Below are positions 2 through 14,600 of a DNA stretch of 16,959 nt, in pieces. The stretch comes from Singulisphaera sp. GP187 (lineage in GTDB: Bacteria; Pseudomonadota; Gammaproteobacteria; Burkholderiales; Burkholderiaceae_C). Where the stretch lies: positions 1 through 16,959 of the forward strand of contig CALPYQ020000002.1 of assembly GCA_943327965.2 (NCBI GenBank). The letters are read 5' to 3'. Every line of letters begins with the position of its first letter. The stretch's first letter is position 1. The translations under genes and the position numbers were made by a program. A model generated the notes under the pieces. It was not told where the DNA came from. It worked only from the letters and a program-made list of their open reading frames with translations, and searched no databases.

Positions 2-595
2 GTACCTATGTTGGTATTGGTAAGCGACACATCGCCTGCCAAAAACTTGAATGATCTCATTGAAATGGCCAAAGCGCGTCCCACTGATTTGAATGCGGGA
101 GGCCCTGCCACAGTCACGCAATTGTTGCTAGAGCAATTTGCACGGCAAGCCAAAATCAAATTCACTTGGGTACCTTACAAAAGCGGCCCAGACACCACCA
201 AGGCACTGATGGGTGGTGAAATTCAAGTGGCCATAGATGCCGTACCCAACAATTTGCCTTTCATTCAAAATGGTAAATTCAAAGCCTTGGCTGTGACCAC
301 CCCCAGCCGCTTGAGCACCTTGCCCAATGTGCCAACCTTGTTAGAACTTGGAATGAAGGATCAGCGAGTCAACCTTTCGCACATCATGCTTGCGCCGCGT
401 GGCATGTCGCCTGTATTACTTAAAAAGATTCAATCAGATGTTCAAGCGTCAGTCACTTCCGATGCAGTCAAAGAAAAATTATTGAGTTTAGGTGTTCAAA
501 CAAATTGGCGTGATGGTATTGAACTAGCAAAATCAGTTCAACTTGAGAGCCCAGTCACAGCAGCTTTGGTACAAGAACTCGGTCTTAAGCCTTAA
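2..595 (+). CDS. Bug/TctC-family solute receptor, C-terminal part (5' end outside window)
   Basis: C-terminal ~198 residues of a periplasmic receptor of the tripartite tricarboxylate transporter (TctC/Bug) family, which binds carboxylates or similar small solutes outside the inner membrane. The frame is open to the window edge, so the ATG at 8 is probably internal. The first visible part (TSPAKNLNDLIEMAK) lines up with about residue 130 of the complete Bug protein at 8774-7809 (SSPIKSMSDLAKVAK), so roughly 125 N-terminal residues and the signal peptide are missing. Family-like segments follow: GGEIQVAIDAVP, LPNVPTLLELG and LAPRGMSPVLLKKIQ. The aldehyde dehydrogenase begins 36 nt downstream on the same strand, so the two may be co-transcribed. 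No TctA or TctB gene is in the window, as is usual for the many orphan Bug receptors of Burkholderiales. The family is clear; the ligand is unknown. Confidence 0.85.
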   Translation, partial: VPMLVLVSDTSPAKNLNDLIEMAKARPTDLNAGGPATVTQLLLEQFARQAKIKFTWVPYKSGPDTTKALMGGEIQVAIDAVPNNLPFIQNGKFKALAVTTPSRLSTLPNVPTLLELGMKDQRVNLSHIMLAPRGMSPVLLKKIQSDVQASVTSDAVKEKLLSLGVQTNWRDGIELAKSVQLESPVTAALVQELGLKP

Positions 596-631
596 ACTGT
601 TTTGCAAAAATTTTTAATTGATTGAATTGAC

Positions 632-2119
632 ATGCGCACTGAATTGAGCCCCTTTCAACTTGCACACCCAGACAAGCTCTTCATTGGGGGTCAATGGATT
701 GCGCCCGCGGGTTCGCGAAGAATTCAGGTCATTGATTCGGCCACTGAAGATCCATTTTTGAGTGTGCCCGAAGCAGAAGAGGCCGACATCGATCGCGCTG
801 TGACTGCTGCTAGAAAAGCGTTTGACGAAGGCCCATGGCCCCGCATGAAGCCTGCAGAGCGGGCTGTTTATATGCGTGCTATCGCGGATGAGTTGGACAG
901 GCGCAGTGTTGATTTAGCTCGGGTCTGGACCACTGAATCTGGGGTAGTGAACAGCGCTGCCCGTGTGACGGCCATGACACTGGGTGAGGCTTATCGCTAT
1001 TACGCCAATTTGGCAGAGACGTTTCCATTCATAGAGCAACATCACCCTAAAGGCGGGGGCAATTTTGGTTTATTGGTTCGTGAGCCTGTTGGGGTGGCGG
1101 CATGTATTATTCCTTGGAATGGCCCCCTGCGCTTGATGACTTTCAAAGTGGCGCCTGCACTGATGGCGGGCTGTGCTGTCGTTTTGAAAGCATCACCAGA
1201 GGCACCCAGTTCACCCTATTTGATGGCTGAAATTTGTGAAGCAGCTGGAGTGCCGCCAGGTGTTTTCAATGTGCTAACGGCAGACCGGCAAGTGTCTGAA
1301 TACTTGGTGCGCCATCCAGGGGTCGATAAAGTTTCCTTCACGGGCTCAACGCTGGCCGGTAAGCGAATTGCCGCCATCTGCGGCGAACGAATTGCGCGGG
1401 TCACTTTAGAATTAGGTGGAAAATCTGCGGGTATTGTGCTGGATGACTATGATCTTGATTTGGTGGCGCAGTCACTGTCCAAAAGCGCAACTTACCTCAC
1501 GGGTCAAGCCTGTTCTTCGTTGACCCGTATCATTGTCTCCAAACATCGGCAGTCTCAATTGCTTGAAGCCCTTGCACATCACTTTGGTCAAATCAAAGTG
1601 GGCGATCCTTTTGATGCCCAGACTGGCATGGGACCTTTGGCTACAGCCAAACACCGTGAGCGGGTAGAGGGCTTCATTGCAAAAGGGTGCGATGGCGGTG
1701 GGACGCTAGTGACTGGCGGCAAACGACCTTCTCACACCCCACGCGGTCATTTTGTCGAGCCCACTGTATTCGGCAATATTTCCAACAATTCAGTCATTGC
1801 GCGGGAAGAGATTTTTGGACCTGTGTTGTCTGTGATCCCCGTGGAGGATGAGCAAGCCGCAGTCGTGACTGCAAACGATTCAATCTATGGACTGAATGCC
1901 TCGGTGTTCACCCATGATGCAGAGCGTGCCTATGCCATTGGCCGTCAGCTTCGCACGGGTACTGTAGGACAAAACGCTTTTCGAAGTGATTTCAGCATAG
2001 CCTTTGGTGGCTTCAAGCAATCGGGCCTAGGCCGCGAAGGCGGTGTCGAGGGTATCTTGCCTTATCTAGAAACCAAGACGCTCATCTTGGACGAGCTCCC
2101 CGCCTTTTTGCGAACATAA
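632..2119 (+). CDS. NAD(P)-dependent aldehyde dehydrogenase
   Basis: Cytoplasmic ALDH-superfamily enzyme of 495 residues, the usual length, oxidising an aldehyde to a carboxylate (or thioester). Expected active-site features are present: Asn163 in PWNGP, Lys186 in VLKASP, FTGST at 236-240, general base Glu260 in LELGGKSAG, nucleophile Cys294 in GQACSSLTR and Glu393 in EEIFGP. Cys294 lies in GQACSS, with TYLTGQAC where many ALDHs have N.GQ.C. No clear Shine-Dalgarno sequence precedes ATG 632, so translation may depend on the upstream Bug gene 36 nt away. The stop is 1 bp from the stop of the convergent LysR gene. In context it could oxidise an aldehyde released after BVMO and hydrolase action, but the substrate is an inference. 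The family is certain, the specificity is not. Confidence 0.93.
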   Translation: MRTELSPFQLAHPDKLFIGGQWIAPAGSRRIQVIDSATEDPFLSVPEAEEADIDRAVTAARKAFDEGPWPRMKPAERAVYMRAIADELDRRSVDLARVWTTESGVVNSAARVTAMTLGEAYRYYANLAETFPFIEQHHPKGGGNFGLLVREPVGVAACIIPWNGPLRLMTFKVAPALMAGCAVVLKASPEAPSSPYLMAEICEAAGVPPGVFNVLTADRQVSEYLVRHPGVDKVSFTGSTLAGKRIAAICGERIARVTLELGGKSAGIVLDDYDLDLVAQSLSKSATYLTGQACSSLTRIIVSKHRQSQLLEALAHHFGQIKVGDPFDAQTGMGPLATAKHRERVEGFIAKGCDGGGTLVTGGKRPSHTPRGHFVEPTVFGNISNNSVIAREEIFGPVLSVIPVEDEQAAVVTANDSIYGLNASVFTHDAERAYAIGRQLRTGTVGQNAFRSDFSIAFGGFKQSGLGREGGVEGILPYLETKTLILDELPAFLRT

Positions 2120-2120: not shown

Positions 2121-3008
2121 TCAGGCCGTTAAAACTTCGATGCACATGTCTACAAAGCGTTGAGATGCCGTCGAAAGTGAATGGCCCCGCATGGTGATGA
2201 TGGCGATCTTTCGTGACATGACAGGCCGAACAATATTGACTGTCCGAAGATTGGTTTGTCGGGGCACCGCCACTTTAGGCAGAATACCAACGCCAAGGCC
2301 TGCTTCCACCATGGCCGCCATGGTGCTGACATGTGTGAAGTCGTAGTTGCGTTCGCTGTTGATTTTGTTTTTCTTCAGAACATCGTCCAATTGTTGTTGG
2401 AATTGAGACGATCCAAGCATCAAAATGGACGGCGATATCTTGGTCAATTCTCTTAATGAGATGCCTTTTTTGTCTGCCAGCGGATGGTCCTGCGGCAGCA
2501 AAGCCACATAAGGATCTTCAAACAGTGGCGTGCATTGAAACTCGCCTATTTTTTCTGGCATGGGGGCGATGCCAAAGTCAACCTCATTTTTTCGAATGGC
2601 TTCCAACAACTCAGGTTGAGCTGTTTCTCTGATGCCCACAGAAATACCTGGATAGGTTCTTGCAAACTCAGTGACCAGCGTGGGCAGGCGAGTGCTAGCC
2701 ACAGTGGGCACACAGGCAAAAACCAGATTGCCCTGCTGGGCATTGGCCGCTTGCTCAATGCTTAAGAGAGCAGCATCAATTTCAGCCATCGCTTTGCGAG
2801 TGCTGATCATCAGCTTCTTGCCTTCATTGGTTAGCACCACTTTCCGAGTAGTGCGCTGCAGCAAGGCCACCCCCAAGCGTTCTTCCAACTGTTTGATTTG
2901 CATGCTGACCGCTGGCAAAGAGATGTTGGTTTGATCGGCGGCCTTGCGAAAGCTCTCGTTTTCTGCCACGGCCAGAAAGGTCGATAACACCTTGAGATTC
3001 ACACGCAT
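2121..3008 (-). CDS. LysR-type transcriptional regulator
   Basis: A 295-residue LysR-type regulator of normal length. The N-terminal winged helix-turn-helix spans about residues 3-60 (AVAENESFRKAADQTNISLPAVSMQIKQLEERLG region, followed by LLQRTTRKVVLT). The rest is a LysR-substrate effector domain from about residue 90. Start ATG 3008 has a good Shine-Dalgarno sequence, AAGGAAA at 3020-3014 on the minus strand, 5 nt upstream. The gene is divergent from the lyase operon, and a T-N11-A box (3032-3044) lies 24 nt from its start, against its own leader, which fits negative autoregulation. The same box recurs before the Bug/crotonase and Liv operons, so it probably controls the whole cluster in response to a pathway metabolite. 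The inducer is unknown. Confidence 0.93.
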   Translation of the reverse strand: MRVNLKVLSTFLAVAENESFRKAADQTNISLPAVSMQIKQLEERLGVALLQRTTRKVVLTNEGKKLMISTRKAMAEIDAALLSIEQAANAQQGNLVFACVPTVASTRLPTLVTEFARTYPGISVGIRETAQPELLEAIRKNEVDFGIAPMPEKIGEFQCTPLFEDPYVALLPQDHPLADKKGISLRELTKISPSILMLGSSQFQQQLDDVLKKNKINSERNYDFTHVSTMAAMVEAGLGVGILPKVAVPRQTNLRTVNIVRPVMSRKIAIITMRGHSLSTASQRFVDMCIEVLTA

Positions 3009-3022
3009 TCGAATTTCCTTTT

Positions 3023-3074
3023 AACAATTGCTCAGATTATTTGACTTGTTATTGGGCATTCACCGACATAGGAT
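3023..3074 (+). promoter_or_regulatory. LysR-type box and candidate promoter for the lyase operon (and LysR autoregulation)
   Basis: TCAGATTATTTGA at 3032-3044 has the T-N11-A form of LysR-type binding sites and is an imperfect palindrome (10 of 13 positions match its reverse complement). It is flanked by AACAAT (3023-3028) and TTGTT (3046-3050), which form an outer inverted repeat. A -10-like TAGGAT (3069-3074) starts 37 nt after the first base of the box. The same 13-mer, AACAAT and TAGNAT recur at identical spacing before livH (8942-8993). If TAGGAT is the -10, transcription starts near 3081, just upstream of the Shine-Dalgarno sequence at 3091. There is no convincing separate -35, which is common at LysR-activated promoters. 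This is pattern evidence only. Confidence 0.6.
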
Positions 3075-3090
3075 GAGTCAAATAAAAGAC

Positions 3091-3096
3091 AGGAGG
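3091..3096 (+). promoter_or_regulatory. Strong Shine-Dalgarno sequence that sets the TTG start of the lyase gene
   Basis: AGGAGG, a full Shine-Dalgarno consensus, lies 6 nt before an in-frame TTG at 3103. The upstream in-frame ATG at 3073 has no such site and overlaps the proposed -10 element. This favours translation from the TTG, giving a protein that begins MARKHKS. Confidence 0.75.
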
Positions 3097-3102
3097 CCAA
3101 GA

Positions 3103-3900
3103 TTGGCACGCAAGCACAAGAGTATACGAACAGACATTGGTTGGAGCGATGCTTCTAGTATTACGCTGTTTGGCAAGGATTTCCCCAATGAAATTTTAGG
3201 TCATCTAAATTTAGGCGATATGGGATTCCTGGAGCTGACAGGCCGATTCCCCAACCCTCATGAATCTCGCATGTTCAATGCCATGGTCGTTACTTTGGTT
3301 GAACACGGTATTACCCCCAGCGCATTGGTGGCCCGTATGACATATTTGGGTGCGCCAGAGTCCTTGCAAGGCGCCGTGGCCGCTGGCCTGAATGGTTTGG
3401 GTACGGTGTTTGTGGGAAGCATTGAAGGCGCCGCCAAGCTCTTGTACGAGGTCATGCCCTCCAAAGAGCCGCAACAAGATCTCAATGCATTGGCAGTGAC
3501 GGTGGTCGATTCTTTCAAAAGTCGAGGCGCTATTGTGCCGGGCATTGGCCATCCCTTTCACAAGCCTATTGACCCACGCACACCCCGATTGAAGCAGATT
3601 GCCGCTGAAACCGGTTTTGACGGTCCTTATCTCAAATTGATGGAGGCAGTAGCCACCCAAGCCAGCTTGGTTTCTGGCAAATCAATGCCCATGAATGCCA
3701 CCGGTGCCATTGGTGCTTTGTGTTGCGAGATGGGGTTTGATTGGAAGATTTGCCGAGGTCTGGGTGTGATGGCACGTGCGGTAGGTTTGGTAGGCCACAT
3801 TTTGGAAGAGTCGCGCAACCCCATGGCACAGGAAGTCTGGCATCGCATCGAAGAGGTTGCCACAGAACACATGCGACCCAAGCAGGATGAAGAAAAATGA
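3103..3900 (+). CDS. Short citrate-synthase-fold lyase (citryl-CoA lyase-like), TTG start
   Basis: A 265-residue protein resembling the citrate-synthase-like lyase part of ATP-citrate lyase and stand-alone citryl-CoA lyases, which cleave a 3-hydroxyacyl-CoA by a retro-aldol/Claisen-type step to acetyl-CoA and a keto compound. Landmarks are VEHG (His68) and GIGHPFHKP (His150), matching the two catalytic histidines of the family, with the PRTPRL segment after the second. The third catalytic position, an Asp in NVDGLIG of ATP-citrate lyase, aligns with Thr200 in NATGAIG, a change that may alter the chemistry. The TTG start at 3103 is chosen because of AGGAGG 6 nt upstream; the longer ATG form (3073) is less likely. 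The stop overlaps the SDR start as ATGA. Citryl-CoA is only one possible substrate; a branched 3-hydroxyacyl-CoA fits this operon better. Fold confident, substrate unknown. Confidence 0.85.
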   Translation: MARKHKSIRTDIGWSDASSITLFGKDFPNEILGHLNLGDMGFLELTGRFPNPHESRMFNAMVVTLVEHGITPSALVARMTYLGAPESLQGAVAAGLNGLGTVFVGSIEGAAKLLYEVMPSKEPQQDLNALAVTVVDSFKSRGAIVPGIGHPFHKPIDPRTPRLKQIAAETGFDGPYLKLMEAVATQASLVSGKSMPMNATGAIGALCCEMGFDWKICRGLGVMARAVGLVGHILEESRNPMAQEVWHRIEEVATEHMRPKQDEEK

Positions 3901-4814
3901 CGCCAGGTTTTGTTCAAGATAAAGTGGTCCTGGTGACAGGCGCAGGCGGGGGCATTGGTCGTGAATTTGCACTGGCCCTTGGCAGGGAAGGCGCAAAGGT
4001 CGTGGTCAATGACTTAGGTGCATCCTTGGATGGTGTAGGTCGCGACAGTGAACGCGCCCAAAGTGTGGTCGATGAGATCAAAGCGGCAGGTGGAGAAGCC
4101 ATTGCCAATGGAGAGAGTGTCGCCGATTGGGACGCTGCAGCCCGTATGGTGCAGCTTGCCGTGGACACTTACGGTCGCATTGATTGCGTCATCAACAATG
4201 CTGGCATTTTGCGCGATCGCTTTTTCTTCAACATGACCAAAGATGATTGGCATCAAGTGATTGACGTGCATCTGCATGGTGCATTTTATGTATCGCGCGC
4301 TGCTGCAACATTTTTCAAAGCGCAGCAGTCTGGATCTTATGTGCACATGGTTTCGACGTCAGGCTTAATTGGCAATTTAGCCCAGGCCAATTATTCGGCA
4401 GCCAAGTTGGGTATTGCGGCACTGTCTAAATCCATTGCCATGGACATGGCCAAGTTCAATGTGCGTTCTAACTGTATTTCTCCGTTTGCATGGAGCCGAA
4501 TGATTAGCTCCATTCCAACCGAGACGCCAGAACAACAAGCGCGCGTGGAACGTCTGCAAAAAATGGCATCTTCCAAAATTGCCCCTTTGGCTGTTTATTT
4601 GGCCAGCGATCAAGGTGCAGGTGTCAGCGGTCAATTGTTTGCAGTACGCGCCAATGAAATATTTTTGATGAGTCAAAGTCGACCCATTCAAGCCATGCAC
4701 ACCGATCAAGGGTGGACGCCAGAGTCCATTGCCAACAGGGTCATGCCTGCATTCAAACCCTCCTTCTATCAGTTGGATCGGTCGCAGGATGTCTTTGACT
4801 GGGATCCTGTTTAA
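3897..4814 (+). CDS. SDR oxidoreductase, probably (R)-3-hydroxyacyl-CoA dehydrogenase type
   Basis: A 305-residue short-chain dehydrogenase. It has the cofactor motif TGAGGGIG (14-21), Asp39 at the end of strand 2 (suggesting NAD rather than NADP), NNAG (100-103), and the catalytic set Ser153, Tyr166 and Lys170 (YSAAK). It resembles the dehydrogenase domain of peroxisomal multifunctional enzyme type 2 (17beta-HSD4), including the NDLG segment after strand 2 and a C-terminal extension of about 60 residues beyond a minimal SDR. Its neighbour is a hydratase-2 protein, so the pair looks like a split version of that bifunctional enzyme, hydrating and then oxidising an enoyl-CoA through the (R)-3-hydroxy intermediate. 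It starts inside the lyase stop codon (ATGA), indicating translational coupling. Steroid or other alcohol substrates cannot be excluded. Confidence 0.88.
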   Translation: MTPGFVQDKVVLVTGAGGGIGREFALALGREGAKVVVNDLGASLDGVGRDSERAQSVVDEIKAAGGEAIANGESVADWDAAARMVQLAVDTYGRIDCVINNAGILRDRFFFNMTKDDWHQVIDVHLHGAFYVSRAAATFFKAQQSGSYVHMVSTSGLIGNLAQANYSAAKLGIAALSKSIAMDMAKFNVRSNCISPFAWSRMISSIPTETPEQQARVERLQKMASSKIAPLAVYLASDQGAGVSGQLFAVRANEIFLMSQSRPIQAMHTDQGWTPESIANRVMPAFKPSFYQLDRSQDVFDWDPV

Positions 4815-4832
4815 TCCTAGAAGATTTTTTGC

Positions 4833-5732
4833 ATGATCAACGCGCAAGCTTTATTGGCAAGACCGTTTCCAGTTTTGAGACAGTCCTACACAGAAAAGGA
4901 CAGCATTCTGTATGCACTGTCATTGGGTTATGGCACCAATCCAATCGATCCAGAACAAATTCAGTTTGTGTATGAAAAAAATCTGCGTGTTGTGCCCTCG
5001 ATGGTCGCTGTCATGTGTGCGCCTGGTTTTTGGTTAGCCGATCCAAGCGTCGGTGCCAACACGGCCATGATTGTTCATGCTGAGCACGCTATTGAATTTC
5101 TCAGACCCTTGGCACCTGCTGGTCAGTTACGCGGTGAAATGTCCGTGATCAATGTGATAGATCGAGGCACTGGCAAGGGCGCCATGATTGTGTCCGAGCG
5201 AGTGATCAAGGACGATACCAACGGCGAACTGGTAGCCCGAATTGTTCAGCACACTTTGTGCCGCGGCGATGGTGGCTTCTCGGGTGTTGAGCCCGCATCA
5301 CGGTTAGAAACTTTCAAAGCCAAAACGACTGAGGCTGCGCCTGCTGACTGGGTTGTGACCTTACCCACCTTGCCTCAAGCAGCTTTGCTTTACCGATTAT
5401 TTGCAGATCTAAACCCTTTGCATGCGGATCCGTTGGTAGCGCAAAAAGCAGGATTTGATCGACCAATTCTTCATGGGCTTTGCACCTACGGTGTGGTGTG
5501 CCGTGCAGTCATGCAAGCTTGCCTAGGTGGCGATGCTTCTCGCATGCATTCCCTCGCAGGAAAGTTTACTGCGCCAGTAATGCCTGGCGACAACTTACTG
5601 ATAGAGATCTGGAAAGACAGCCAGAACCCAGCGCAGCAGTCAGGTCGACAAAGCCTGAGGATTCGCTGCTCGGTGCCCGAACGACAGTCTGTGGTTTTTT
5701 CAAATGCTACAGCCACGGTAGAAATGCCATGA
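4833..5732 (+). CDS. MaoC/hydratase-2 family enoyl-CoA hydratase (double hot-dog)
   Basis: A 299-residue two-hot-dog protein like the hydratase-2 domain of multifunctional enzyme type 2, hydrating trans-2-enoyl-CoA to (R)-3-hydroxyacyl-CoA. The N-terminal half starts with a typical YTEKDSILYALSLGYG segment (19-34). The C-terminal half carries the hydratase-2 signature YRLFADLNPLHADP, with catalytic Asp192 and His197 in D-x-N-P-x-H, followed by RPILHGLCTYG. It starts 18 nt after the SDR and ends in an ATGA overlap with a micro-ORF before the CoA-transferase. MaoC proteins can also hydrate itaconyl- or mesaconyl-type CoA esters, but the length and two-domain form fit the hydratase-2 group better. 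Confidence 0.9.
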   Translation: MINAQALLARPFPVLRQSYTEKDSILYALSLGYGTNPIDPEQIQFVYEKNLRVVPSMVAVMCAPGFWLADPSVGANTAMIVHAEHAIEFLRPLAPAGQLRGEMSVINVIDRGTGKGAMIVSERVIKDDTNGELVARIVQHTLCRGDGGFSGVEPASRLETFKAKTTEAAPADWVVTLPTLPQAALLYRLFADLNPLHADPLVAQKAGFDRPILHGLCTYGVVCRAVMQACLGGDASRMHSLAGKFTAPVMPGDNLLIEIWKDSQNPAQQSGRQSLRIRCSVPERQSVVFSNATATVEMP

Positions 5733-5803
5733 CACACAAACAGGAGTTAGAGATGGAGACGACTCAATTTTGCCCCTTGAACTTGGATGATTTCACGGCA
5801 TGA
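5729..5803 (+). CDS. Possible translated micro-ORF (24 aa, or 16 aa from ATG 5753) between hydratase and CoA-transferase
   Basis: The 67-nt gap between the hydratase stop and the CoA-transferase start is one open frame. It begins in the hydratase stop (ATGA at 5729) and ends in the CoA-transferase start (ATGA at 5800). Inside it, AGGAG (5742-5746) stands 6 nt before ATG 5753, opening METTQFCPLNLDDFTA. The CoA-transferase has no visible Shine-Dalgarno sequence of its own, so ribosomes loaded at 5753 and stopping at 5803 could re-initiate at 5800. I recognise no protein family in it. It may be a coupling leader, the remnant of a deleted gene, or chance. Confidence 0.35.
   Translation: MTHKQELEMETTQFCPLNLDDFTA
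5742..5746 (+). promoter_or_regulatory. Shine-Dalgarno sequence serving the micro-ORF rather than the CoA-transferase
   Basis: AGGAG lies 6 nt before ATG 5753 but 53 nt before the CoA-transferase ATG at 5800, too far to serve it directly. This is the main reason to suspect that the 16-codon frame 5753-5803 is translated. Confidence 0.5.
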
Positions 5804-6999
5804 CTCATTTACCTGCGCTCCATGGACTCAAGGTCATCGACTTATCGCGCGTATTGGCTGGCCCTCTGGCTGCGCAAATATTGGCAGACTTAGGTGCCGA
5901 TGTGCTCAAGATTGAACGGCCTGGAAAGGGTGACGACACCCGTGAATGGGCACCGCCATTCCTGACACCCAATAAAGATGGACCCCTCGAAAATTCAGCT
6001 TATTTCTGGTCCTGTAACAGAGGCAAAAAATCGCTGACAGCAGACATTGGCACAGATGCTGGACGTGATTTGGTTCTTCGTTTGGCATTGGATGCCGATG
6101 TCTTGATCGAGAACTACAAGGTGGGAACTTTGGCCCGATATGGCCTCGATTACGAGACTTTGGCAAAGGACAATCCGCGTCTTATTTATTGCTCCATCAC
6201 AGGTTTCGGCCAAACAGGGCCGTATCGAAAAAAACCTGGGTATGACACTATCGTTCAAGCAATGGGTGGCTTGATGAGTATCACGGGTTCTGCAGCAGAT
6301 GATGAGGCAGATTCTGGAGGTGGTGGGCCCACCAAATCTGGCGTCGCAGTAGCCGATCAGATGACTGCGCTTTACGCATCAGTGGCCATTCTTGCTGCGC
6401 TTCAAGAAAGGCAATCTTCCGGTTTGGGGCAGGCGATTGACATGTCCCTTTTGGATGTGCAAGTGGCCAGCCTGACCAACATAGGCTTGAACTTTTTGGC
6501 CACCGGCAAAGTGCCCGTTAGGCAGGGTAATCGTTTAGCAACGGTTTACCCAAGTGACACTTTCCGATGCAGCGACGGAGACATCATGTTGATAGTCGGC
6601 AATGACGCGCAATATAGGCGGTTCTGTGATGCGATGGGCGTTCCAGAATTGGCAATTGATACGCGCTTTGCAAGCAACGCATCCAGACTTCAGCATGTGT
6701 CCGAATTAGATCCCTTGCTCAGGCAAATCTTTGCGCGAATGTCACTGATTGATTGCCAGACTGCATTGGACGCAGTGGGTGTGCCTGCCGCACCCATCAA
6801 TGACTTGGCGGCAGTCTTCAAAGATCCACAGGTTATGGCGCGAGGCATGGTTCGAACAACAAAGCGCGAAGATGGTTCTGAGGTTCGCTCTCTTGCCAAT
6901 CCTATTCGGATGTCGCGTTCTAGGGTGATGGACAACCGAGGTGCGCCTAAGTTGGGTGAACACACTGATTTAGCGGCCGATGGTTGGCCGCAGTCCTAA
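5800..6999 (+). CDS. CaiB/BaiF family (class III) CoA-transferase
   Basis: A 399-residue class III CoA-transferase moving CoA between carboxylic acids through enzyme-bound anhydride and thioester intermediates. The N-terminus is typical (GLKVIDLSRVLAGPLAAQILADLGADVLKIE), followed by NRGKKSL, ITGFGQTGPY, PGYD (147-150) and a catalytic-region Asp, probably Asp186 in GVAVADQM. GLGQAIDMSLLD (208-219) and the C-terminal half of the family follow. Some family members are racemases (alpha-methylacyl-CoA racemase), which would also suit a branched substrate, but the usual racemase His is replaced by Tyr148 here, so a transferase is more likely. It starts in an ATGA overlap with a micro-ORF stop. The stop is 1 bp from the convergent crotonase gene. 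It probably activates the acid entering beta-oxidation; the donor and acceptor are unknown. Confidence 0.92.
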   Translation: MTHLPALHGLKVIDLSRVLAGPLAAQILADLGADVLKIERPGKGDDTREWAPPFLTPNKDGPLENSAYFWSCNRGKKSLTADIGTDAGRDLVLRLALDADVLIENYKVGTLARYGLDYETLAKDNPRLIYCSITGFGQTGPYRKKPGYDTIVQAMGGLMSITGSAADDEADSGGGGPTKSGVAVADQMTALYASVAILAALQERQSSGLGQAIDMSLLDVQVASLTNIGLNFLATGKVPVRQGNRLATVYPSDTFRCSDGDIMLIVGNDAQYRRFCDAMGVPELAIDTRFASNASRLQHVSELDPLLRQIFARMSLIDCQTALDAVGVPAAPINDLAAVFKDPQVMARGMVRTTKREDGSEVRSLANPIRMSRSRVMDNRGAPKLGEHTDLAADGWPQS

Positions 7000-7000
7000 C

Positions 7001-7771
7001 TTAAGTGGGCTGTCCCCAAACAGGTTTTCGCTTTTCAACAAATGCAAGCAACCCTTCAGCACAATCGGTTGTGCCAAAAACCGAGGACACCAAATCAACC
7101 GCATTGGCCGCGCCTTGTCTATAGCCATTGTCTGTAGCACGAATGAAACCAGCTTTACCCAATCGCATCAATTCGGGTGATTTCGCAGCAAACATTTTTG
7201 CCAATTCAATGGCCTTGTCGTGGACTTGATCTTCAGGTACCAAACTGCTTATCAAGCCTAAGGACAGCGCTTCTTGCGCATTGAACGCGCGGCCTGAGAG
7301 CAAAAGATCAAAGGCCCTTTGTTTGCCAACAAGACGGGGTAAATGATGAAAGTGGATTGAAGGCAAGAGGCCAATTTCTAATTCTGGGTAACCAAATGTG
7401 GCATTCTCAGCTGCCACCAGCATGTCGCAGGTAATTGCAATTGACATGCCGCCACCTCTAACGGCGCCGGTGATTGCACCAATGACAGGCTTGGGTAAAT
7501 TAGAGTTGACCTCATACAGCTGGTAGTAGAGTTTATTGACGACCTCATATGCTTCGCTGGGCGAGCTTTCTCTGAATTTGTGAAGGTCCAGCCCACCGCA
7601 AAACCGACCCGGAATAGCGCTTCCAATCACAATAGCGCGTACTTTGGGGTCTGAGCCTGCTTGGGAAAGTAGCGCCATCAGACGGTCTAACATCGCTGAA
7701 GTGATGCCATTCACCGGCGGGTTGTTGAGCAGAATTTCGGCGACGCCTTCTTCGGTCTTGTAGGTCAGCAT
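7001..7771 (-). CDS. Enoyl-CoA hydratase/isomerase (crotonase) family protein
   Basis: A 256-residue crotonase-fold protein of normal length. The oxyanion-hole segments are present (FCGGLDLHKF at 58-66 and GAVRGGGMSIAITCD at 102-116), as is FGYPELEIGLLP. Of the two catalytic glutamates of enoyl-CoA hydratase, the first (in GGGCE of the rat enzyme) is Ser110 here, and the second is kept as Glu130. A one-glutamate active site is more like isomerases or other crotonases than a standard hydratase, so the reaction should be left open. It lies 37 nt downstream of the Bug gene on the minus strand, likely in the same operon, with only a weak ribosome-binding site. Hydration in this locus may instead be done by the MaoC-type protein. 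Confidence 0.88.
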   Translation of the reverse strand: MLTYKTEEGVAEILLNNPPVNGITSAMLDRLMALLSQAGSDPKVRAIVIGSAIPGRFCGGLDLHKFRESSPSEAYEVVNKLYYQLYEVNSNLPKPVIGAITGAVRGGGMSIAITCDMLVAAENATFGYPELEIGLLPSIHFHHLPRLVGKQRAFDLLLSGRAFNAQEALSLGLISSLVPEDQVHDKAIELAKMFAAKSPELMRLGKAGFIRATDNGYRQGAANAVDLVSSVFGTTDCAEGLLAFVEKRKPVWGQPT

Positions 7772-7808
7772 TTCAATGTAATTTTCGTAAGTTGTGAAAG
7801 CGCTTCAA

Positions 7809-8774
7809 TTACTGAGGTTCGATACCTGCTTGAACCATGAGCTGAATCCAGCGGGGGTTGTCTGAGCGGAGTCGCTCTTGAAGCTGTTTGCTAGAGAGAG
7901 ACAAAACACTGGTATTTAAAGTCTGAAATTGGGCCTTTACTTCGGGTGTGCTCATGGCTTTCTGAAATGCAGCATCCAACTTTTCCACCACATTGGCGGG
8001 TGTTCCTGCTGGTGCCTGCACCGCAATGATGGTTTCTAGCGAGCCAGTGGCATTGGGAAAAATTTCTTGAAGCGTTGGCACTTGAGGGGCGCTAGCAGAT
8101 CTGTTTACGGCGGAAATGGCAAGAGCCCGCGCTTTCTGTCCATTGACCTGTGCCATGCCGCTGCCAATGTCAACAACAGCCACTTGCACTTGTCCGCCCA
8201 TCATGTCTGTGATGGCCTGCGGAATGCCACGATAACTAACAGCGATGGGTTCTGATTCTGTGACTGAAGAGAACAGTGCCACAGCCACTTGACCGCTTGG
8301 AGAACCGTAGGCCATGCTGACGGACTGTTTGGAAGATTTAGCCACCTTTGCAAGGTCTGACATGCTTTTTATGGGAGATGACTGCGCGACCAAGAACATC
8401 ATGGCCGTTGAGCCCAAACCTGCAACTGGTACAAAACTTTCCATAGGGTCGTAGGGAAGTGTCTTGAACATGCCCTTCGCCACAAACATACCGGAGGACC
8501 CTATCAACAAGGTATAGCCATCGGGCCTGGCGTTGGCCACAAAGGCGGCACCAATGGTGCCTTGGGCGCCAGCCTTATTTTCAACAATGACATTTTGTCC
8601 AATAGCCTCGGACAATGCTTTTGCCACGATGCGCGTCACGCTGTCAGTGACAGACCCTGCAGGAAATGGGGCTACAAGGCTGATTGGCTTTGAAGGGAAG
8701 TTCTGGGCCTGTACTTGAATCGATATCAAAGCAGCGGCTGAGCAGACAAGGCTGTAGAAAAATTGTTTGAGCAT
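7809..8774 (-). CDS. Bug/TctC-family periplasmic solute receptor
   Basis: A complete 321-residue receptor of the tripartite tricarboxylate transporter family. Residues 1-23 form a signal peptide with probable cleavage after VQA. The mature protein has the family pattern VAPFPAGSVTD (Asp44), VVEN-like VIVENKAGAQGTIGA, ARPDGYTLLIG and, near the C-terminus, QVPTLQEIFPN. It probably captures a carboxylate or other pathway substrate in the periplasm. No tctA or tctB gene is nearby, so it would need membrane components from elsewhere or act as an orphan sensor or receptor. It is the first gene of a minus-strand pair with the crotonase. A LysR-type box pointing toward it lies at 8851-8863, about 77 nt upstream of its start. 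Confidence 0.93.
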   Translation of the reverse strand: MLKQFFYSLVCSAAALISIQVQAQNFPSKPISLVAPFPAGSVTDSVTRIVAKALSEAIGQNVIVENKAGAQGTIGAAFVANARPDGYTLLIGSSGMFVAKGMFKTLPYDPMESFVPVAGLGSTAMMFLVAQSSPIKSMSDLAKVAKSSKQSVSMAYGSPSGQVAVALFSSVTESEPIAVSYRGIPQAITDMMGGQVQVAVVDIGSGMAQVNGQKARALAISAVNRSASAPQVPTLQEIFPNATGSLETIIAVQAPAGTPANVVEKLDAAFQKAMSTPEVKAQFQTLNTSVLSLSSKQLQERLRSDNPRWIQLMVQAGIEPQ

Positions 8775-8820
8775 GGTGATTCAATCTCTAGGCGTTTTTT
8801 CTTGATGGAGATGGGCTTTG

Positions 8821-8872
8821 AGGTTACTGCAAGGCGTAAAGAGAGACAAATTAAATTATCTGAACCACTCTT
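8821..8872 (-). promoter_or_regulatory. LysR-type box and candidate promoter for the Bug/crotonase operon
   Basis: On the minus strand, TCAGATAATTTAA (8863-8851) matches the box at 3032 and 8951 at 11 of 13 positions and keeps the T-N11-A ends. It is followed, as in the other copies, by one base and TTG. It is preceded at the same spacing by AAGAGT, 4 of 6 to AACAAT. A weak -10-like TAACCT (8826-8821) begins 37 nt from the first base of the box, the same offset as in the other two. It would place a start near 8816, giving a leader of about 40 nt. It is less certain than the two identical copies. Confidence 0.45.
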
Positions 8873-8941
8873 CACAAAGGAAGGGTTGTCGTCATTTGAA
8901 ATTCGTGCATCAGTTCAAAAAATCTAAAAATGCATTCATTG

Positions 8942-8993
8942 AACAATCCTTCAGATTATTTGATTTGATTTTGTAAAGGATCGAACCTAGCAT
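8942..8993 (+). promoter_or_regulatory. LysR-type box and candidate promoter for the Liv transporter operon
   Basis: TCAGATTATTTGA (8951-8963) is identical to the box upstream of the lyase operon. AACAAT lies at the same distance before it (8942-8947), TTG after it (8965-8967), and TAGCAT (8988-8993) stands at the -10 position found at 3069. Aligned over 35 nt (3020-3054 against 8939-8973), 28 positions match. The livH start at 9065 is about 65 nt beyond the predicted transcription start. The 290-nt divergent gap 8775-9064 holds this box and the one facing the Bug gene, and I see nothing else in it. Confidence 0.6.
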
Positions 8994-9064: not shown

Positions 9065-9937
9065 ATGGATTTATTTCAAAATTTTTCTGTCATCCAATTG
9101 GCCAACGCATTGGCCTTGTCATCGCTACTGACCATCTTGGCAAGTGGCTTGGCTCTTATTTTTGGTTTACGGGATGTCATGAATTTTGCCCATGGCGCTT
9201 TGTACATGCTGGGTGCATATCTTGGCTTTGCTGTAGCAGCCAAGTTCAATTTTTGGATTGCCTTGGCTGTCGTTCCATTTTTATTGGCAGGCGTTGGCGT
9301 TATTTTTGAATATGCAGTCTTGCGTCCCCTGCATCAAAGAGCGCACATGGATGTCGCCTTGATTACCTTCGGCATTGCGCTTATTTTGGGGCACTTGGTC
9401 AACACGACTTGGGGTACTTCGCCACTTTCTGTGGCCATGCCACCCTCACTGTCTGGCGCGGTAGATTTGTTTGGTCAACCTTATCCCGCATACCGAATAT
9501 TTTTGATCTTGGTGGGCTTCGGCACTTGTGCCATGTTGGCCGCTTGGTTGAAGTGGACTAAGTCAGGTATGCATGTTCGGGCCGTCAGCCAATTGCCATT
9601 GGTAGCACGCATGATGGGTGTCAATACAGACCGATTAAGCTTGTTTGTAGTTTGTTTGGGTACAGGCTTTTCAGGCTTGGCTGGTGTTTTGGCAGGGCCT
9701 TATCTGTCAGTTGATCCCAGTATGGGTGCAAATATTCTGATCAGTTGCCTCATTGTCGTCGTCGTCGGAGGCTTGGGGAGTATAGGCGGCGCAATTGTGG
9801 CTTCCGTGGTCTATGGTTTCATTCAAGTCATTGGTAGCATTGTGTCGCCATTGATGTCTGTGATGACACCTTACATGCTGTTGTTCTTCGTCTTGCTGTG
9901 GCGTCCGCAGGGTTTTGGAAAAGGCCGGGTTGCGTGA
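9065..9937 (+). CDS. livH: Branched-chain amino acid-type ABC transporter permease LivH
   Basis: A 290-residue inner-membrane permease of the HAAT (Liv) family, almost entirely hydrophobic with about eight membrane segments. It contains the family segment GLRDVMNFAHGALYMLGAY near residues 35-53, ISCLIVVVVGGLGSIGGAIVAS, and a C-terminal FVLLWRPQG. It pairs with LivM to form the channel. The first gene of a five-gene transporter set, it has no strong Shine-Dalgarno sequence before ATG 9065. Its stop overlaps the livM start as TGATG. Liv-type systems of Burkholderiales carry aromatic acids, amides and other compounds as well as amino acids, so the substrate here is probably the pathway compound (inference). 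Confidence 0.93.
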   Translation: MDLFQNFSVIQLANALALSSLLTILASGLALIFGLRDVMNFAHGALYMLGAYLGFAVAAKFNFWIALAVVPFLLAGVGVIFEYAVLRPLHQRAHMDVALITFGIALILGHLVNTTWGTSPLSVAMPPSLSGAVDLFGQPYPAYRIFLILVGFGTCAMLAAWLKWTKSGMHVRAVSQLPLVARMMGVNTDRLSLFVVCLGTGFSGLAGVLAGPYLSVDPSMGANILISCLIVVVVGGLGSIGGAIVASVVYGFIQVIGSIVSPLMSVMTPYMLLFFVLLWRPQGFGKGRVA

Positions 9938-10941
9938 TGAAAAAAACGCCCATTTATTCGGCCATTGGTTCTTCCAAAGTATTTTGGTATGTGGTCATTA
10001 TGGGCGTTGTGCTGGCGGGCTTAGCCGTACCTAGCATGGTCAAAAGCACCTTCTATTTGGGCCTATTGATCAATGCCATTACGCTGGGTATTGCGGCGCT
10101 GTCCATTGGATTTTTGGCACATCAATGTGGTCTCATTATGTTTGGCGCAGCAGGTTTTACTGGCGGTGCCACTTATTTATTTGGCATTGGTGTGATGCAC
10201 TTCAATTGGAGTGTCACCACCGCAGCTGTCTTTTGTCTAGTGGCTTCTACACTCATCTGTTTGCTCATTGGCATGGTGGTGGTGCGCGCCCGGCCCTTGC
10301 CATTTGCCATGATGACATTGGCCTTAGCTCAGATGCTTCGCTCAGTGGTCAAGATCACTTCTTACCGCGAGGTCACGGGAGGGGATGATGGTTTAACCAT
10401 GAATTGGAATGGCCACTTCTTTGGCTTGACTCAGGCTGAATTGGCGCGACCTGCTAACTTTTGGGTGGTAGCTTGGTTGGCGCTTTGCGGTGTGATGCTC
10501 TTGGCTTGGTGGGTAGGACAGTCTCGAACAGGTGAAATTTTGCGTGCGACCAAAGCCAATGAAGAGAGGATGCGCTTTTCTGGTTTCAATACCTATATAC
10601 CAAGGGTACTGGCTTTTGGACTGGCAGGTTTCATTGCCGCCGTTTCTGGTTTATTGGTGGGTCTGCACACTGCGTTTGCGTCTCCTGAGTTGCTTGACTT
10701 TACAACGGGTGCCAATTCATTGGTGTCCATGTTGATAGGGGGTGCCACTGTCGTTACTGGGCCTATTTTGGGTGCGCTTCTTTACACAATTGGACAGGAT
10801 CAGTTTGGTGCTAGTGGTCACCTAGAGTTGTTAACTGGCGTGGGTGTGGTAATCGTGGTGGTGGCATTTCCAAAGGGTGCTATTGGGTTTTTGCAGAGCG
10901 GCTTGGATCGCTTAACTGGGCGTCATCATGCTTCGAATTGA
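9937..10941 (+). CDS. livM: Branched-chain amino acid-type ABC transporter permease LivM
   Basis: A 334-residue membrane permease of the LivM group and partner of LivH. It shows many hydrophobic segments and the family segments FLAHQCGLIMFGAAGFTG, EVTGGDDGL, GFNTYIPRVLAFGLAGFIA and SLVSMLIGGATVVTGPILGA. The ATG at 9937 overlaps the livH stop (TGATG) and is preferred over an upstream GTG at 9898 inside livH. The 3' end overlaps livG by 14 nt, so the three genes are tightly coupled. Confidence 0.93.
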   Translation: MKKTPIYSAIGSSKVFWYVVIMGVVLAGLAVPSMVKSTFYLGLLINAITLGIAALSIGFLAHQCGLIMFGAAGFTGGATYLFGIGVMHFNWSVTTAAVFCLVASTLICLLIGMVVVRARPLPFAMMTLALAQMLRSVVKITSYREVTGGDDGLTMNWNGHFFGLTQAELARPANFWVVAWLALCGVMLLAWWVGQSRTGEILRATKANEERMRFSGFNTYIPRVLAFGLAGFIAAVSGLLVGLHTAFASPELLDFTTGANSLVSMLIGGATVVTGPILGALLYTIGQDQFGASGHLELLTGVGVVIVVVAFPKGAIGFLQSGLDRLTGRHHASN

Positions 10942-11626
10942 AGACCTCAGTGTGTCGTATGGCAGCGTCAAAGCCCTGGACAGAATCAATCTTGAGGTTT
11001 CGCAAAGGGGTGTTTTGCATGGTGTGATTGGCCCTAATGGCGCTGGTAAATCCACTTTAATGGACGCCATTACCGGAAGATGCAAGCCCACATTGGGGCG
11101 TGTTTTTATGAATGGCATTGACATTACCGCACGTCCAATTGAATGGCGTCGCAGAGCAGGCATGTCTCGCTCATTTCAGCGCACCAGTATTTTTCCTGGC
11201 ATCTCGGTAGGTCAACAACTTGAGATGGTCGCTTTGCACTTGGGTGAAAAAGATCTACCAAGTATTGTTGATACGCTTGAACTCAATGACATGTATGACT
11301 TGATGGCAGACAGCATCGCTTACGGCGATCAGCGCCGTGTTGACATTGCGCTGGCCTTGTTAGGACAGCCCAGTCTCATGTTGTTGGATGAACCTGCAGC
11401 AGGTTTATCGACAGCAGAGACCGTCAAACTCTTTGAGCATTTATTAGCGGTTGTTCGCCATCGCAACGTCACAGCATTGGTTGTTGAACATGACGTTGAA
11501 GCGGTTTTTAAATTTTGCGACACCATCACGGCGTTGGACTTAGGTAGATTGCTAACCACTGGAACGCCGTCAGAAGTACGGAGCCATCCTGAAGTCATTT
11601 CTGCTTACTTGGGGTCGAGTGCATGA
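10928..11626 (+). CDS. livG: ABC transporter ATPase LivG
   Basis: A 232-residue cytoplasmic ATPase subunit, slightly short for LivG. Walker A is GPNGAGKST (35-43), the Q-loop is Gln84 in RSFQRTSIF, the signature is degenerate (IAYGDQRR, 130-137, where LivG proteins usually have LSYG.Q), and Walker B is LMLLDEP with Asp154 and Glu155. The switch His lies in VVEHDVE. It starts 14 nt inside livM and ends in an ATGA overlap with a 26-codon open frame that fills the gap to livF. The C-terminus (PEVISAYLG) is the normal family ending, so the gene is complete. Confidence 0.93.
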   Translation: MLRIEDLSVSYGSVKALDRINLEVSQRGVLHGVIGPNGAGKSTLMDAITGRCKPTLGRVFMNGIDITARPIEWRRRAGMSRSFQRTSIFPGISVGQQLEMVALHLGEKDLPSIVDTLELNDMYDLMADSIAYGDQRRVDIALALLGQPSLMLLDEPAAGLSTAETVKLFEHLLAVVRHRNVTALVVEHDVEAVFKFCDTITALDLGRLLTTGTPSEVRSHPEVISAYLGSSA

Positions 11627-11703
11627 ACAATTTTAGAGATGACTTGTCGATTCAGATGTCGAAGCTTTCAGTGCACTTGACTCATCGAAGGGTTCTGTCA
11701 TGA
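11623..11703 (+). CDS. Possible micro-ORF (26 aa) bridging livG and livF
   Basis: The 73-nt gap between livG and livF is one open frame starting in the livG stop (ATGA at 11623) and ending in the livF start (ATGA at 11700). The product would begin MNNFRDDLSIQMSK and end THRRVLS. I recognise no family. Unlike the similar frame at 5729, livF here has its own reasonable Shine-Dalgarno sequence (AAGGG, 11688-11692), so coupling would be less necessary. It could be chance: a 25-codon stretch without a stop is not rare. Confidence 0.25.
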   Translation: MNNFRDDLSIQMSKLSVHLTHRRVLS

Positions 11704-12395
11704 GCTTTATCCGTGTTCAAGGATTGAGTGCTGGCTATGGCAAGTCAGTGGTTCTACGCAATGTCGATCTCGAAGTTCACGAAGGTGAATCAGTTGCAGT
11801 GGTCGGTAAAAACGGCGCAGGCAAGTCAACCCTCATCATGTCATTTTTTGGAGGTACCACCATCAGTCAAGGTGCCATTGAAGTGGACGGAAAAACCCTT
11901 AACAGCATGCCAGCCTTTATGGCGGCCAAGCAGGGGGTGACGGTTTCCCCTCAAGGGCGAATGATTTTGCCGCACCTTACCGTCGGAGATAACTTGCGAC
12001 TGGGCGCAGCATCGGGCCGCCAAGGTCGATGGGACGTGCGTTCTGTTTTCAAACTCTTCCCTGTTTTAGAGGAGCGTCAAGACAAGATGGGGACAGCCTT
12101 GAGTGGTGGTCAGCAACAAATGCTGGCAGTAGGGAGAGCCTTACTGGGAAATCCTCGCGTGCTGCTTTTGGATGAACCCTCAGAGGGCTTGTCGCCTGTG
12201 CTTGTTGATGAATTGGCTCGAGTTTTCAATGAAATTCGTGCTGAAGGTACTGGACTTTTGATGGTGGAGCAGCACTTGAATTTGGTACGCCGCGTCAGTC
12301 AGCGTTTTGTGGTGATGGCCAAGGGCGAAATCATCGATCGTGGCCTCACAGAGAACATAGATAAAGAGCAGCATCAAGCTGCCTTGGCTTTTTAA
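11700..12395 (+). CDS. livF: ABC transporter ATPase LivF
   Basis: A 231-residue second ATPase of the Liv system. Walker A is GKNGAGKST (36-44, where GRNGAGK is common in LivF), followed by SPQGRMILPHLTV, signature LSGGQ (134-138) and Walker B VLLLDEPSEGLS with Asp158 and Glu159. The switch His is in MVEQHL. AAGGG at 11688-11692 serves as ribosome-binding site. It ends 19 nt before the binding-protein gene. With LivG it forms the ATPase pair driving LivHM. Confidence 0.94.
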   Translation: MSFIRVQGLSAGYGKSVVLRNVDLEVHEGESVAVVGKNGAGKSTLIMSFFGGTTISQGAIEVDGKTLNSMPAFMAAKQGVTVSPQGRMILPHLTVGDNLRLGAASGRQGRWDVRSVFKLFPVLEERQDKMGTALSGGQQQMLAVGRALLGNPRVLLLDEPSEGLSPVLVDELARVFNEIRAEGTGLLMVEQHLNLVRRVSQRFVVMAKGEIIDRGLTENIDKEQHQAALAF

Positions 12396-12414
12396 TTTAA
12401 CAAAGGAGACTCTT

Positions 12415-13596
12415 ATGATTCGTAAGTTATTCACAGCAGCCATTGCCTCAGTGGTTTTACAAGGCAGTGCCATTGCACAGGAAACGGTCAAGCTAGGACT
12501 GATCAATTTTGACTCAGGTCCTTTTGCCGTGTTCGCGCCCTTCATTAGAGATGGCGCAACATTGGCCATTGAACACCTGAATGCCAGAGGAGGCGTGCTT
12601 GGCCGCAAATATGAACTTGTATCGCAATCACATGCAGGTACACCTGCAGCCGCATTGGCTGCAGCCAATAGATTGGTAGAGCAACAAGGCGCAAACATCT
12701 TTACGGGATTAAGTAGTTCAAGCACTTCATTGGCTCTGTCACCCAGACTGGCTGCAATGAATGCCATTTTTGTTGACACCACGTCGGCGGCAGATGATTT
12801 GACTGGCAAAAACTGCCAAGCTAATTATTTCCGTGTCGGTCACAATGACTCAGCATTTGTGAACAGCCTGCGCTCTTTGTTGAAAGAGAGTCCAACAAAG
12901 ACTTGGGATTTGTACATGGCTGACTATGCCTTGGGTCACGACTATGCCAAAAAATTTACACAACTCGTTGAAGAAAACGGTGGCAAAGTTCAGAAAGTGA
13001 TTTTTTCTCCACCAGGCGCACCTGATGTGGGTAGTTTTATCTCTCAATTATTGGTCAAACCTGCAGATGGACTGATGGTTCTTTATCCGGGCTCCGCAGG
13101 TGTTACGTTGGCCAAGCAGCAGCAACCCTTCGGTTTGTTTGCCAAGTACAAAACAGTGTTTTCCGTTTTTTCGACCAATGAAATGTTGATTGAAGCTCAA
13201 GGCGATACAACAGCCGGCATTATTTCTGCCCAAAGTTATTATTGGTCGATGCCAGGTGAACGAAATGCCGCATTTGTGAAAGCATTTGAAGCGCGATTTA
13301 AACGCAAACCAACTTTTGTCGATGCAGATACATATTTGTCGTTTGAGATGATTCACCAAGCCATTGCCAACGCTAAATCGACAGACACTGCCGCAGTTCG
13401 CACAGCACTGACAGGCTTGAAAGCATCCACCATTGCAGGTGATGTAGAAATGCGTGCTGCGGATCACCAAATTCTTCGCTCGATGGTCATCACGCGTGCA
13501 GTGAAGGTAGCAGAAGGCAAAGGTGACTTTGTTGTTAAAGAAATTCAAGCCATGAACAAGGTCGCGCCACCTGTAGGTTCAGATTGCAAGTTGTAA
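12415..13596 (+). CDS. Liv-type ABC transporter periplasmic substrate-binding protein
   Basis: A 393-residue periplasmic binding protein of the Leu/Ile/Val-binding (Peripla_BP_6) type. Residues 1-21 are a signal peptide with probable cleavage after AIA. The mature protein opens VKLGLINFDSGPFAVFAPFIRDGATLAIEHLN, the normal start of lobe 1. Cysteines in GKNCQA and near the end (VGSDCKL) may form a disulphide. A strong Shine-Dalgarno sequence (AAAGGAG, 12402-12408) lies 6 nt before the start, fitting the high expression such proteins need. It is the receptor for LivHMGF and, being the specificity part, the best handle on what the cluster imports. It is not close enough to any characterised ligand class for me to name the ligand. 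Confidence 0.93.
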   Translation: MIRKLFTAAIASVVLQGSAIAQETVKLGLINFDSGPFAVFAPFIRDGATLAIEHLNARGGVLGRKYELVSQSHAGTPAAALAAANRLVEQQGANIFTGLSSSSTSLALSPRLAAMNAIFVDTTSAADDLTGKNCQANYFRVGHNDSAFVNSLRSLLKESPTKTWDLYMADYALGHDYAKKFTQLVEENGGKVQKVIFSPPGAPDVGSFISQLLVKPADGLMVLYPGSAGVTLAKQQQPFGLFAKYKTVFSVFSTNEMLIEAQGDTTAGIISAQSYYWSMPGERNAAFVKAFEARFKRKPTFVDADTYLSFEMIHQAIANAKSTDTAAVRTALTGLKASTIAGDVEMRAADHQILRSMVITRAVKVAEGKGDFVVKEIQAMNKVAPPVGSDCKL

Positions 13597-13614
13597 TTTT
13601 GCAAATTTGATTCA

Positions 13615-13648
13615 GGATGCCGCATTGTCAATGAGACATGTGGCATCC
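13615..13648 (+). terminator. Stable hairpin between the binding-protein and hydrolase genes
   Basis: GGATGCC at 13615-13621 pairs with GGCATCC at 13642-13648. The stem continues with one G.T pair and CAT/ATG to 11 pairs, then, past a bulged T, GTC/GAC, closing a short AATGA loop. No run of T follows (ATTTCAGTTTG), so it is not a classical Rho-independent terminator. It may reduce read-through or protect the 3' end of the transporter mRNA, so that the binding protein is made in excess over the hydrolase and BVMO. Confidence 0.45.
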
Positions 13649-13676
13649 ATTTCAGTTTGAATAATGGAGTCACTCG

Positions 13677-14600
13677 ATGCCCCTGCATCCTTTCTTAGAA
13701 AAAATGCTGGCACAGCCTGGTCGACCACAAATATCTGCCGGTAGCCCATCTGATGCACGTGCGGTCGTTGCCGCCAGCCGAACAGCATTAGGTAAAGGCC
13801 CAGACTTGGCATCTGTCACAGAAGTCCAGATCCCCACTCGCTCTGGATCGGTTCCAGGGCGATTGTTTCTTCCTACGCAAAAGCCCTTAGGCGTTGTTGT
13901 TTACTTGCACGGAGGGGGATGGGTTGCTGGCGCGTTAGATGATTTTGATACTTTGGCGCGACATATTGCACATCGCAGCGAGTGTGCCCTCGTCTTGGTT
14001 GATTATCGATTGGCGCCAGAGTTTCCGTTTCCAGCTGGACTAGAGGATGCCGAAGACAGTTTGCGTTGGGCAAATGGCTTATGGTCGAATTACTCAACTA
14101 CACGTTTGCCCTTGATCGTTGGGGGGGACAGTGCAGGCGCGAACTTGGCCATTGTGGCTGCCAATACGCTGCGTTCAGAAATTGAAGTGGCCTTGCTTGC
14201 ATTGGTATATCCTGTGACGGATGCGCCACTGCGAACGAAAAGTTACGAAAGCTACGGAAGCAATTTTCCATTGACCAGCAGCGACATGATTTGGTTTTTT
14301 AATCATTATGCAAATGAGTCTTTGTGGTTAGACCCGCGTATTACGCCTTTGCAAGAAAAATCATGGTCAGGTTCTCCGCCAGTATGGATAGCAACAGCTG
14401 AATACGATGTCTTGCGTGACGAAGGAGAGATGTTTGCACAACGACTCCAGGAAGAAGGTATCTCAGTCAAGCTACGTCGTTATGAAGGGGTCACGCATGG
14501 ATTTATTCGGATGATGAACTTGCTAGACACCGCCGACACTGCTGTGAGTGATTTGGCTTTGGCGATTAAATCGGCATGCCAGAATGATCACAACCAATAA
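13677..14600 (+). CDS. Alpha/beta hydrolase of the hormone-sensitive-lipase (family IV) type
   Basis: A 307-residue esterase-type hydrolase. It has the oxyanion-hole motif HGGG (78-81), YRLAPE (110-115), nucleophile Ser152 in GDSAG, acid Asp244 in AEYDVLRDEG and His274 in VTHGF, so the triad is complete. No signal peptide is seen; it is cytoplasmic. ATG 13677 has GGAG 7 nt upstream. It lies 19 nt before a BVMO gene, an arrangement common in pathways where the BVMO makes an ester or lactone that the hydrolase then opens. Its natural substrate is probably that product (inference). Confidence 0.93.
   Translation: MPLHPFLEKMLAQPGRPQISAGSPSDARAVVAASRTALGKGPDLASVTEVQIPTRSGSVPGRLFLPTQKPLGVVVYLHGGGWVAGALDDFDTLARHIAHRSECALVLVDYRLAPEFPFPAGLEDAEDSLRWANGLWSNYSTTRLPLIVGGDSAGANLAIVAANTLRSEIEVALLALVYPVTDAPLRTKSYESYGSNFPLTSSDMIWFFNHYANESLWLDPRITPLQEKSWSGSPPVWIATAEYDVLRDEGEMFAQRLQEEGISVKLRRYEGVTHGFIRMMNLLDTADTAVSDLALAIKSACQNDHNQ

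Follow-up and report, generated by a model that had tools for sequence, protein, structure and literature searches.

The window analysed here is a 16,959-nucleotide stretch of a Singulisphaera sp. GP187 assembly (contig CALPYQ020000002.1; GTDB lineage Burkholderiaceae_C). Three copies of a short box in this window, each placed before a different operon, very probably form the cores of operators for the LysR-type regulator encoded at 2121..3008 (-), and would represent the activator site of this LysR subfamily, serving a catabolic regulon and the lysR gene itself. The regulator contains an HTH_1 domain (PF00126, 79.2 bits) and a LysR_substrate domain (PF03466, 153.1 bits), and is divergent from the first of the operons. 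The comparisons described below established the element, its position, its geometry, its conservation and its co-occurrence with the LysR subfamily.

The 13-mer box TCAGATTATTTGA occurred in two identical copies, at 3032-3044 (+) and 8951-8963 (+), and a third box, TCAGATAATTTAA at 8863-8851 (-), matched it at 11 of 13 positions. All three were found at the positions and on the strands given in a preliminary description of the stretch. The geometry claimed there also held on alignment, every box being followed by TTG at +14 and by the hexamer TAnnnT at +37, as did the presence of AACAAT at equal spacing ahead of the two identical copies and of AAGAGT in the third. Each box was held within a 24-bp operator: operator 1 at 3021..3044 (+), TTAACAAT-TGCTCAG-ATTATTTGA; operator 2 at 8851..8874 (-), TGAAGAGT-GGTTCAG-ATAATTTAA; and operator 3 at 8940..8963 (+), TGAACAAT-CCTTCAG-ATTATTTGA. 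Measured from the 24-mer, TTG stood at +25 and the -10 hexamer at +48, offsets common to the relatives. Promoter 1 (3046..3074 (+)) comprised a -35 type TTG at 3046 and a -10 type TAGGAT at 3069-3074, promoter 2 (8821..8849 (-)) TTG at 8849 and TAACCT at 8826-8821, and promoter 3 (8965..8993 (+)) TTG at 8965 and TAGCAT at 8988-8993. Transcription would be predicted to start at ~3081, ~8814 and ~9000, respectively; for the minus-strand promoter, a start at 8816 had been proposed, and the same geometry corrects this to ~8814.

The bare 13-mer repeat was discarded as evidence, being near chance: the window contained eight identical direct 13-mer pairs, against a mean of 4.1 in 20 shuffles. Further 11/13 matches to the box were present at 12790 (+), 9740 (-) and 8927 (-). 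The three-site observation was nevertheless confirmed as real, its significance coming from a longer element and from promoter geometry rather than from the 13-mer. For comparison, 78 loci with LysR relatives were examined, the closest ones belonging to Comamonadaceae and other Burkholderiales. In 16 of them (L005-L020), the LysR was 45-92% identical to that of the window, and 12 of these 16 had at least one further gene in common with the window, in varied gene orders and counting only matches at ≥35% identity. The element common to the intergenic regions of L005-L020 was longer than the box, reading TGAAcAATcgtTCAgaTtATTTGAcTTGT-N19-TAncaT with TAncaT at +48 (consensus of 26 non-redundant sites). 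The 13-bp box first proposed was real, but the element it belongs to measures about 24-29 bp. Across the window and L005-L020 (273,936 bases), a match at 14 or more of the 17 operator positions was seen at 35 places, and at 0 in Markov controls, while 62 loci with distant LysRs (875,891 bases) gave 5 such places, against 4.5 in the controls.

Two matrices were built from these sites. The 26-site matrix omitted L102, L084, L110, L019 and the palindrome at L012 1078, with sites at least 75% identical collapsed. The 21-site matrix drew on ten other loci and also left out the window, L005, L006, L018, L106 and the palindrome at L013 1066. Both matrices, as well as a 28-site set used for dyad analysis, included only sites having TTG at +25 (39/52). 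When the window was scanned with the 21-site matrix, for which its sites were cross-validated, the three best places were operator 3 (8940+, 48.6), operator 1 (3021+, 47.6) and operator 2 (8874-, 36.8). The fourth-best place scored -1.0, a gap of ~38 bits below the third site, and the best score in 30 shuffled windows was 10.7. No place in the 62 distant-LysR loci reached a score of 16 with the 26-site matrix. Sites similar to operator 1 were present before citE in L005-L008, L011, L015 and others, operator 2 was kept before tctC in L006 (4143+), and operator 3 was kept before livH in L006 (4075-).

Promoter geometry was assessed on 32 sites in L005-L020 that had been picked by the operator alone. 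TTG occurred at +25 in 27 of the 32 and TAnnnT at +48 ± 1 in 29, both being present in 26. Of the six exceptions, three were palindromes close to lysR, while TTG was replaced by TTC in one site and by TTA in two.

Genomes were then scanned with a composite pattern, defined as operator + TTG + TA with at most 3 mismatches. The preliminary description had called for such a scan for equally good matches elsewhere. In the own genome (2.0 Mb, 69% complete), the pattern matched three times, exactly at the three window sites, and nothing against the proposal emerged. In the 18 genomes or records selected because they carry a LysR relative, there were 51 composite matches, with at least one in each of the 18 and 0 in the reversed control. 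At 0-1 mismatch, 31 of the 51 remained, in 15 of the 18; G012, G014 and G015 had matches at 2-3 mismatches only. By manual reading of contigs, 43 of the 51 had that LysR on their own contig. Among the 8 that did not, two on G001:C77 were equal or nearly equal by letters to the livH/tctC2 pair of L006, two stood before TauD genes (G004:C457 and G005:C720), and four had 3 mismatches and were chance-like. The 398 other genomes examined from the order had no composite match at 0-1 mismatch. A scan for the operator alone (≤1 mismatch) gave matches in 3 of the 250 genomes of the family, the own one and 2 of the 249 others. With the best nine or fewer candidates per genome scored in the family and six or fewer in the order, LysR was found at E ≤ 1e-60 in 1 of 250 family genomes, the own one, and at 1e-70 in 1 of 399 genomes of the order, again the own one. 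Overall, the element tracked the LysR gene across genomes. Two kinds of candidate in the own genome were rejected: near-13-mers on contigs C69 and C72, for which the matrix gave no place of at least 16 in L003 and L004, and a 24-mer with 2 mismatches on contig C151, which had neither TTG nor a -10 hexamer.

Several points weigh against a LysR operator. The recognition-helix letters PAVSMQIKQLEE also occur in the distant LysRs of L021, L024, L038 and L049, which are without the element, so specificity is not explained on the protein side. The 398 other genomes of the order gave 41 composite matches in 34 genomes (three at 2 mismatches, the rest at 3), and the reversed control in the same genomes gave 32 matches in 26 genomes. 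Matches at 3 mismatches are thus near chance, and those in G012, G014 and G015 weigh little. The sensitivity of the composite pattern is partly circular, because many of the sites scanned had served to derive it, and LysR absence is approximate, given the number of candidates scored per genome. The plasmid locus L116 of Variovorax paradoxus VAI-C, outside the training set, does speak for the operator, with one site (50.0 with the 26-site matrix) before an LLM monooxygenase gene divergent from lysR, but is not fully independent, because this LLM gene is 89% identical to that of training locus L010. No element was found with the matrix in the plasmid relatives L117-L119 (LysR 39-43% identity).

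The element might instead be the site of another regulator travelling with the cluster, such as the IclR-type protein coded on contig C27 of the own genome. We consider this unlikely. A related IclR gene is indeed present in L005, L006, L009 and the own contig C27 (L155), and an IclR is annotated in L116. At the search thresholds used, however, the related gene was found in only 4 of 20 sources (L005-L020, L116 and L155-L157), and the elements in L008, L010-L017 and L020 occur without that IclR in the available DNA, where some contigs are short and the search covered this IclR gene only. Proximity to lysR also argues for the LysR protein: by manual reading, the window and 14 of the 16 loci L005-L020 each had a site no more than ~150 bp from a lysR gene, and near-palindromic versions, TGAACAAT-N7-ATTGTTCA, stood directly before lysR in L009 (7528-), L012 (1078-), L013 (1066-) and L020 (9992-).

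These near-palindromes next to lysR do not have the complete promoter geometry, which also makes it very improbable that the element is extended promoter sequence, kept for polymerase contact and serving no regulator. The near-fixed distance to the TAnnnT hexamer and the frequent TTG would suit such a role, but the element was missing at 0-1 mismatch from all 398 other genomes of the order and occurred only 3 times in the own genome. A chance 13-mer match beside ordinary promoters is hardly credible, for although the exact repeat is near expectation, the longer element with its geometry is far above chance in the window and is conserved across genomes of differing gene order.

If the element is the LysR operator, the regulator would bind the 24 bp with consensus TGAAcAATcgtTCAgaTtATTTGA. 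This element abuts a weak -35 (TTGT), and a weak -10 (TAnnnT) follows at a fixed distance; weak hexamers of this kind suit activation. With inducer present, perhaps an acid or a CoA-pathway intermediate of a ketone, bound LysR would activate the three operons. At site 1, it would also be expected to repress lysR itself. The lysR gene starts at 3008 (-) and operon 1 at 3103 (+), with the operator at 3021-3044 in their common intergenic region, 12 bp ahead of the lysR start codon on the opposite strand. Together with the near-palindromes before lysR in relatives, which are likely autoregulatory sites judging from their placement, this suggests autorepression.

The symmetry of the element was examined next to the proposal that the sites have the T-N11-A form. 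In the 28-site set, the end T was present in 27 sites and the end A in 26. Within the 24-mer of 26 sites, TCA-N7-TGA (T-N11-A) was the best dyad at 0.68, a value reached by 26 of 500 column permutations, followed by TGAA-N6-TTCA at 0.58, the two centres being 10.5 bp apart. When flanks were included for the 28 sites, TGAA-N6-TTCA came first (0.51) and T-N11-A second (0.46). There is thus modest support for a T-N11-A dyad in the site, as had been claimed, but it overlaps the second dyad, and their order reverses with the frame used. A further dyad, AAyAAT-N7-ATTrTT, was rejected as the main symmetry because it scored 0.47 in promoter sites, where the maximum in permutations had a median of 0.55; it fits the lysR-proximal copies only.

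Relative to the predicted starts, the element would occupy about -60 to -37, abutting the -35, with predicted centres at ~-43 for the T-N11-A dyad and ~-53 for the second. Over the 40 bases preceding the element, no column rose above 0.5 bit. A compact operator may be tentatively proposed, although we would not favour it: TGA-type half-sites spaced by roughly a helical turn (TGAA at 0, TTCA at 10, TTTGA at 20) would form two overlapping dyads that share the middle half-site, so that recognition and activation would both rely on this single element abutting the -35, and no further site at -65 would be present.

In PMC5603801, the LysR recognition binding site (RBS), with T-N11-A, is described as usually lying near -65, and the activation binding site (ABS) near -35 as having no known conserved motif. 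RBS/ABS operators, among them those of PnpM/PnpR, CbbR and OccR, are like the present sites in having a T-N11-A dyad by an activated promoter. Those systems are tetrameric activators of catabolic operons, and in them, as here, lysR is divergent from a controlled operon. They would differ in position, since the conserved element is predicted here close to the -35, with T-N11-A at ~-43 and not at -65. With its predicted position, the element could serve to test the generality of the -65/-35 picture for LysR sites. The lys box of PltR, as presented in PMC3382589, is alike in length (22 bp), in T-N11-A and in location upstream of an activated promoter, but is a perfect 9-4-9 palindrome at -74 to -53 of the plt promoter.

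A CatR-like LysR regulon of Comamonadaceae, described in PMC6449761, is alike in its LysR, related to CatR, ClcR and CynR, in T-N11-A, and in TctC-type (COG3181) targets. Its described targets are catechol genes (CatA, CatB and CatC homologues), none of which is among the families identified here. It is set apart by these targets and not by a motif logo, and overlap is possible. CynR itself (NF008416) was the best-scoring NCBIfam model for the window LysR, at 172.3 bits, but this misses the equivalog cut-off of 277 bits. No earlier description of the operator or regulon was found in an open-licence library searched on the motif letters and the gene set, and the motif-letter matches inspected there were primers. 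The regulon appears to be new, while the kind of gene switch is known and ordinary. Cross-genome comparison here defines the operator and regulon of a LysR subfamily, in which one signal links transporter, CoA-pathway and Baeyer-Villiger genes, and the operator can be used directly to search for additional members of the pathway and for its substrate.

Co-transcription within the three operons is predicted. Operon 1 (3103..6999 (+)) encodes a citryl-CoA-lyase-type protein, an SDR, a MaoC-type hydratase and a family III CoA-transferase (CaiB). The citE-type start was set at TTG 3103, behind AGGAGG, because the 3103 start is kept in relatives (GTG in L005, L006 and L008, ATG in L007) and L005/L006 lack the alternative ATG at 3073. 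Operon 2 (7001..8774 (-)) encodes a TctC-type binding protein and an enoyl-CoA hydratase (ECH). Operon 3 (9065..16272 (+)) comprises ABC-transporter-type genes, an alpha/beta hydrolase and a Baeyer-Villiger type monooxygenase. Of its five transporter genes, the first is UrtB/LivH-type, below library cut-offs, and the others were named by eye from their translations. Each of the 11 sources that encode citE has a site ahead of this gene or its operon (in L009, ahead of the tctC preceding it). Gene orders differ among the other sites, which stand before ech, tctC, livH, LLM monooxygenase and TauD-type dioxygenase genes. The regulon may perhaps break down a ketone-like compound, a guess prompted by the Baeyer-Villiger monooxygenase, whose nearest solved structure by sequence is phenylacetone monooxygenase (677 bits), and by a methylmalonyl-CoA-mutase-type protein on C27.

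Contig C27 (G000:C27, L155 1-7874) was an 80% match to the part of L006 in which the cluster extends past the left end of the window. It encodes an alcohol dehydrogenase (ADH), the IclR-type protein, the methylmalonyl-CoA-mutase-type protein and a TauD protein. A weaker fourth site was present on it, scoring 27.5, with the ADH match beginning 81 bp after the site start; the corresponding ADH sites scored 31.7 in L005/L006 and 21.3 in L007. With the same matrix, chance composite matches in 29 loci of the order sample scored up to 25.0, so the case for the fourth site comes from its conserved location, not from its score. The proposed three-operon regulon, regulator included, was accordingly supported as to its three sites but is probably larger. 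A TctC-type gene, cut by the contig end, and an aldehyde dehydrogenase gene at 8..2119 (+) had a weak upstream element (3.3 on C27, 11.5 in L005/L006), and are doubtful as further regulon members. No site was found near the TauD gene on C27, where the best score was 3.3. Upstream of the IclR-type gene, a TGAATAATTATTC-type repeat (L155 2549+) scored 15.8 and is possibly the IclR protein's own site.

Diverged or repeated forms of the element were also seen in more distant clusters. In L018 (17431-) and L019 (15054-), where a LysR of 45% identity lies next to a Baeyer-Villiger gene, a diverged element (32.0 and 33.2) retained its spacing, and in L019 it stood before an aldehyde dehydrogenase gene. 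On a Paraburkholderia plasmid (L120), weak variants at 7940- and 8939+ (23 and 25) flanked a LysR of 38% identity. L012 and L013 each encoded two LysR paralogues (57% and 55% identical to the window LysR) ~9 kb apart, and seven composite-pattern matches were found on each of their contigs.

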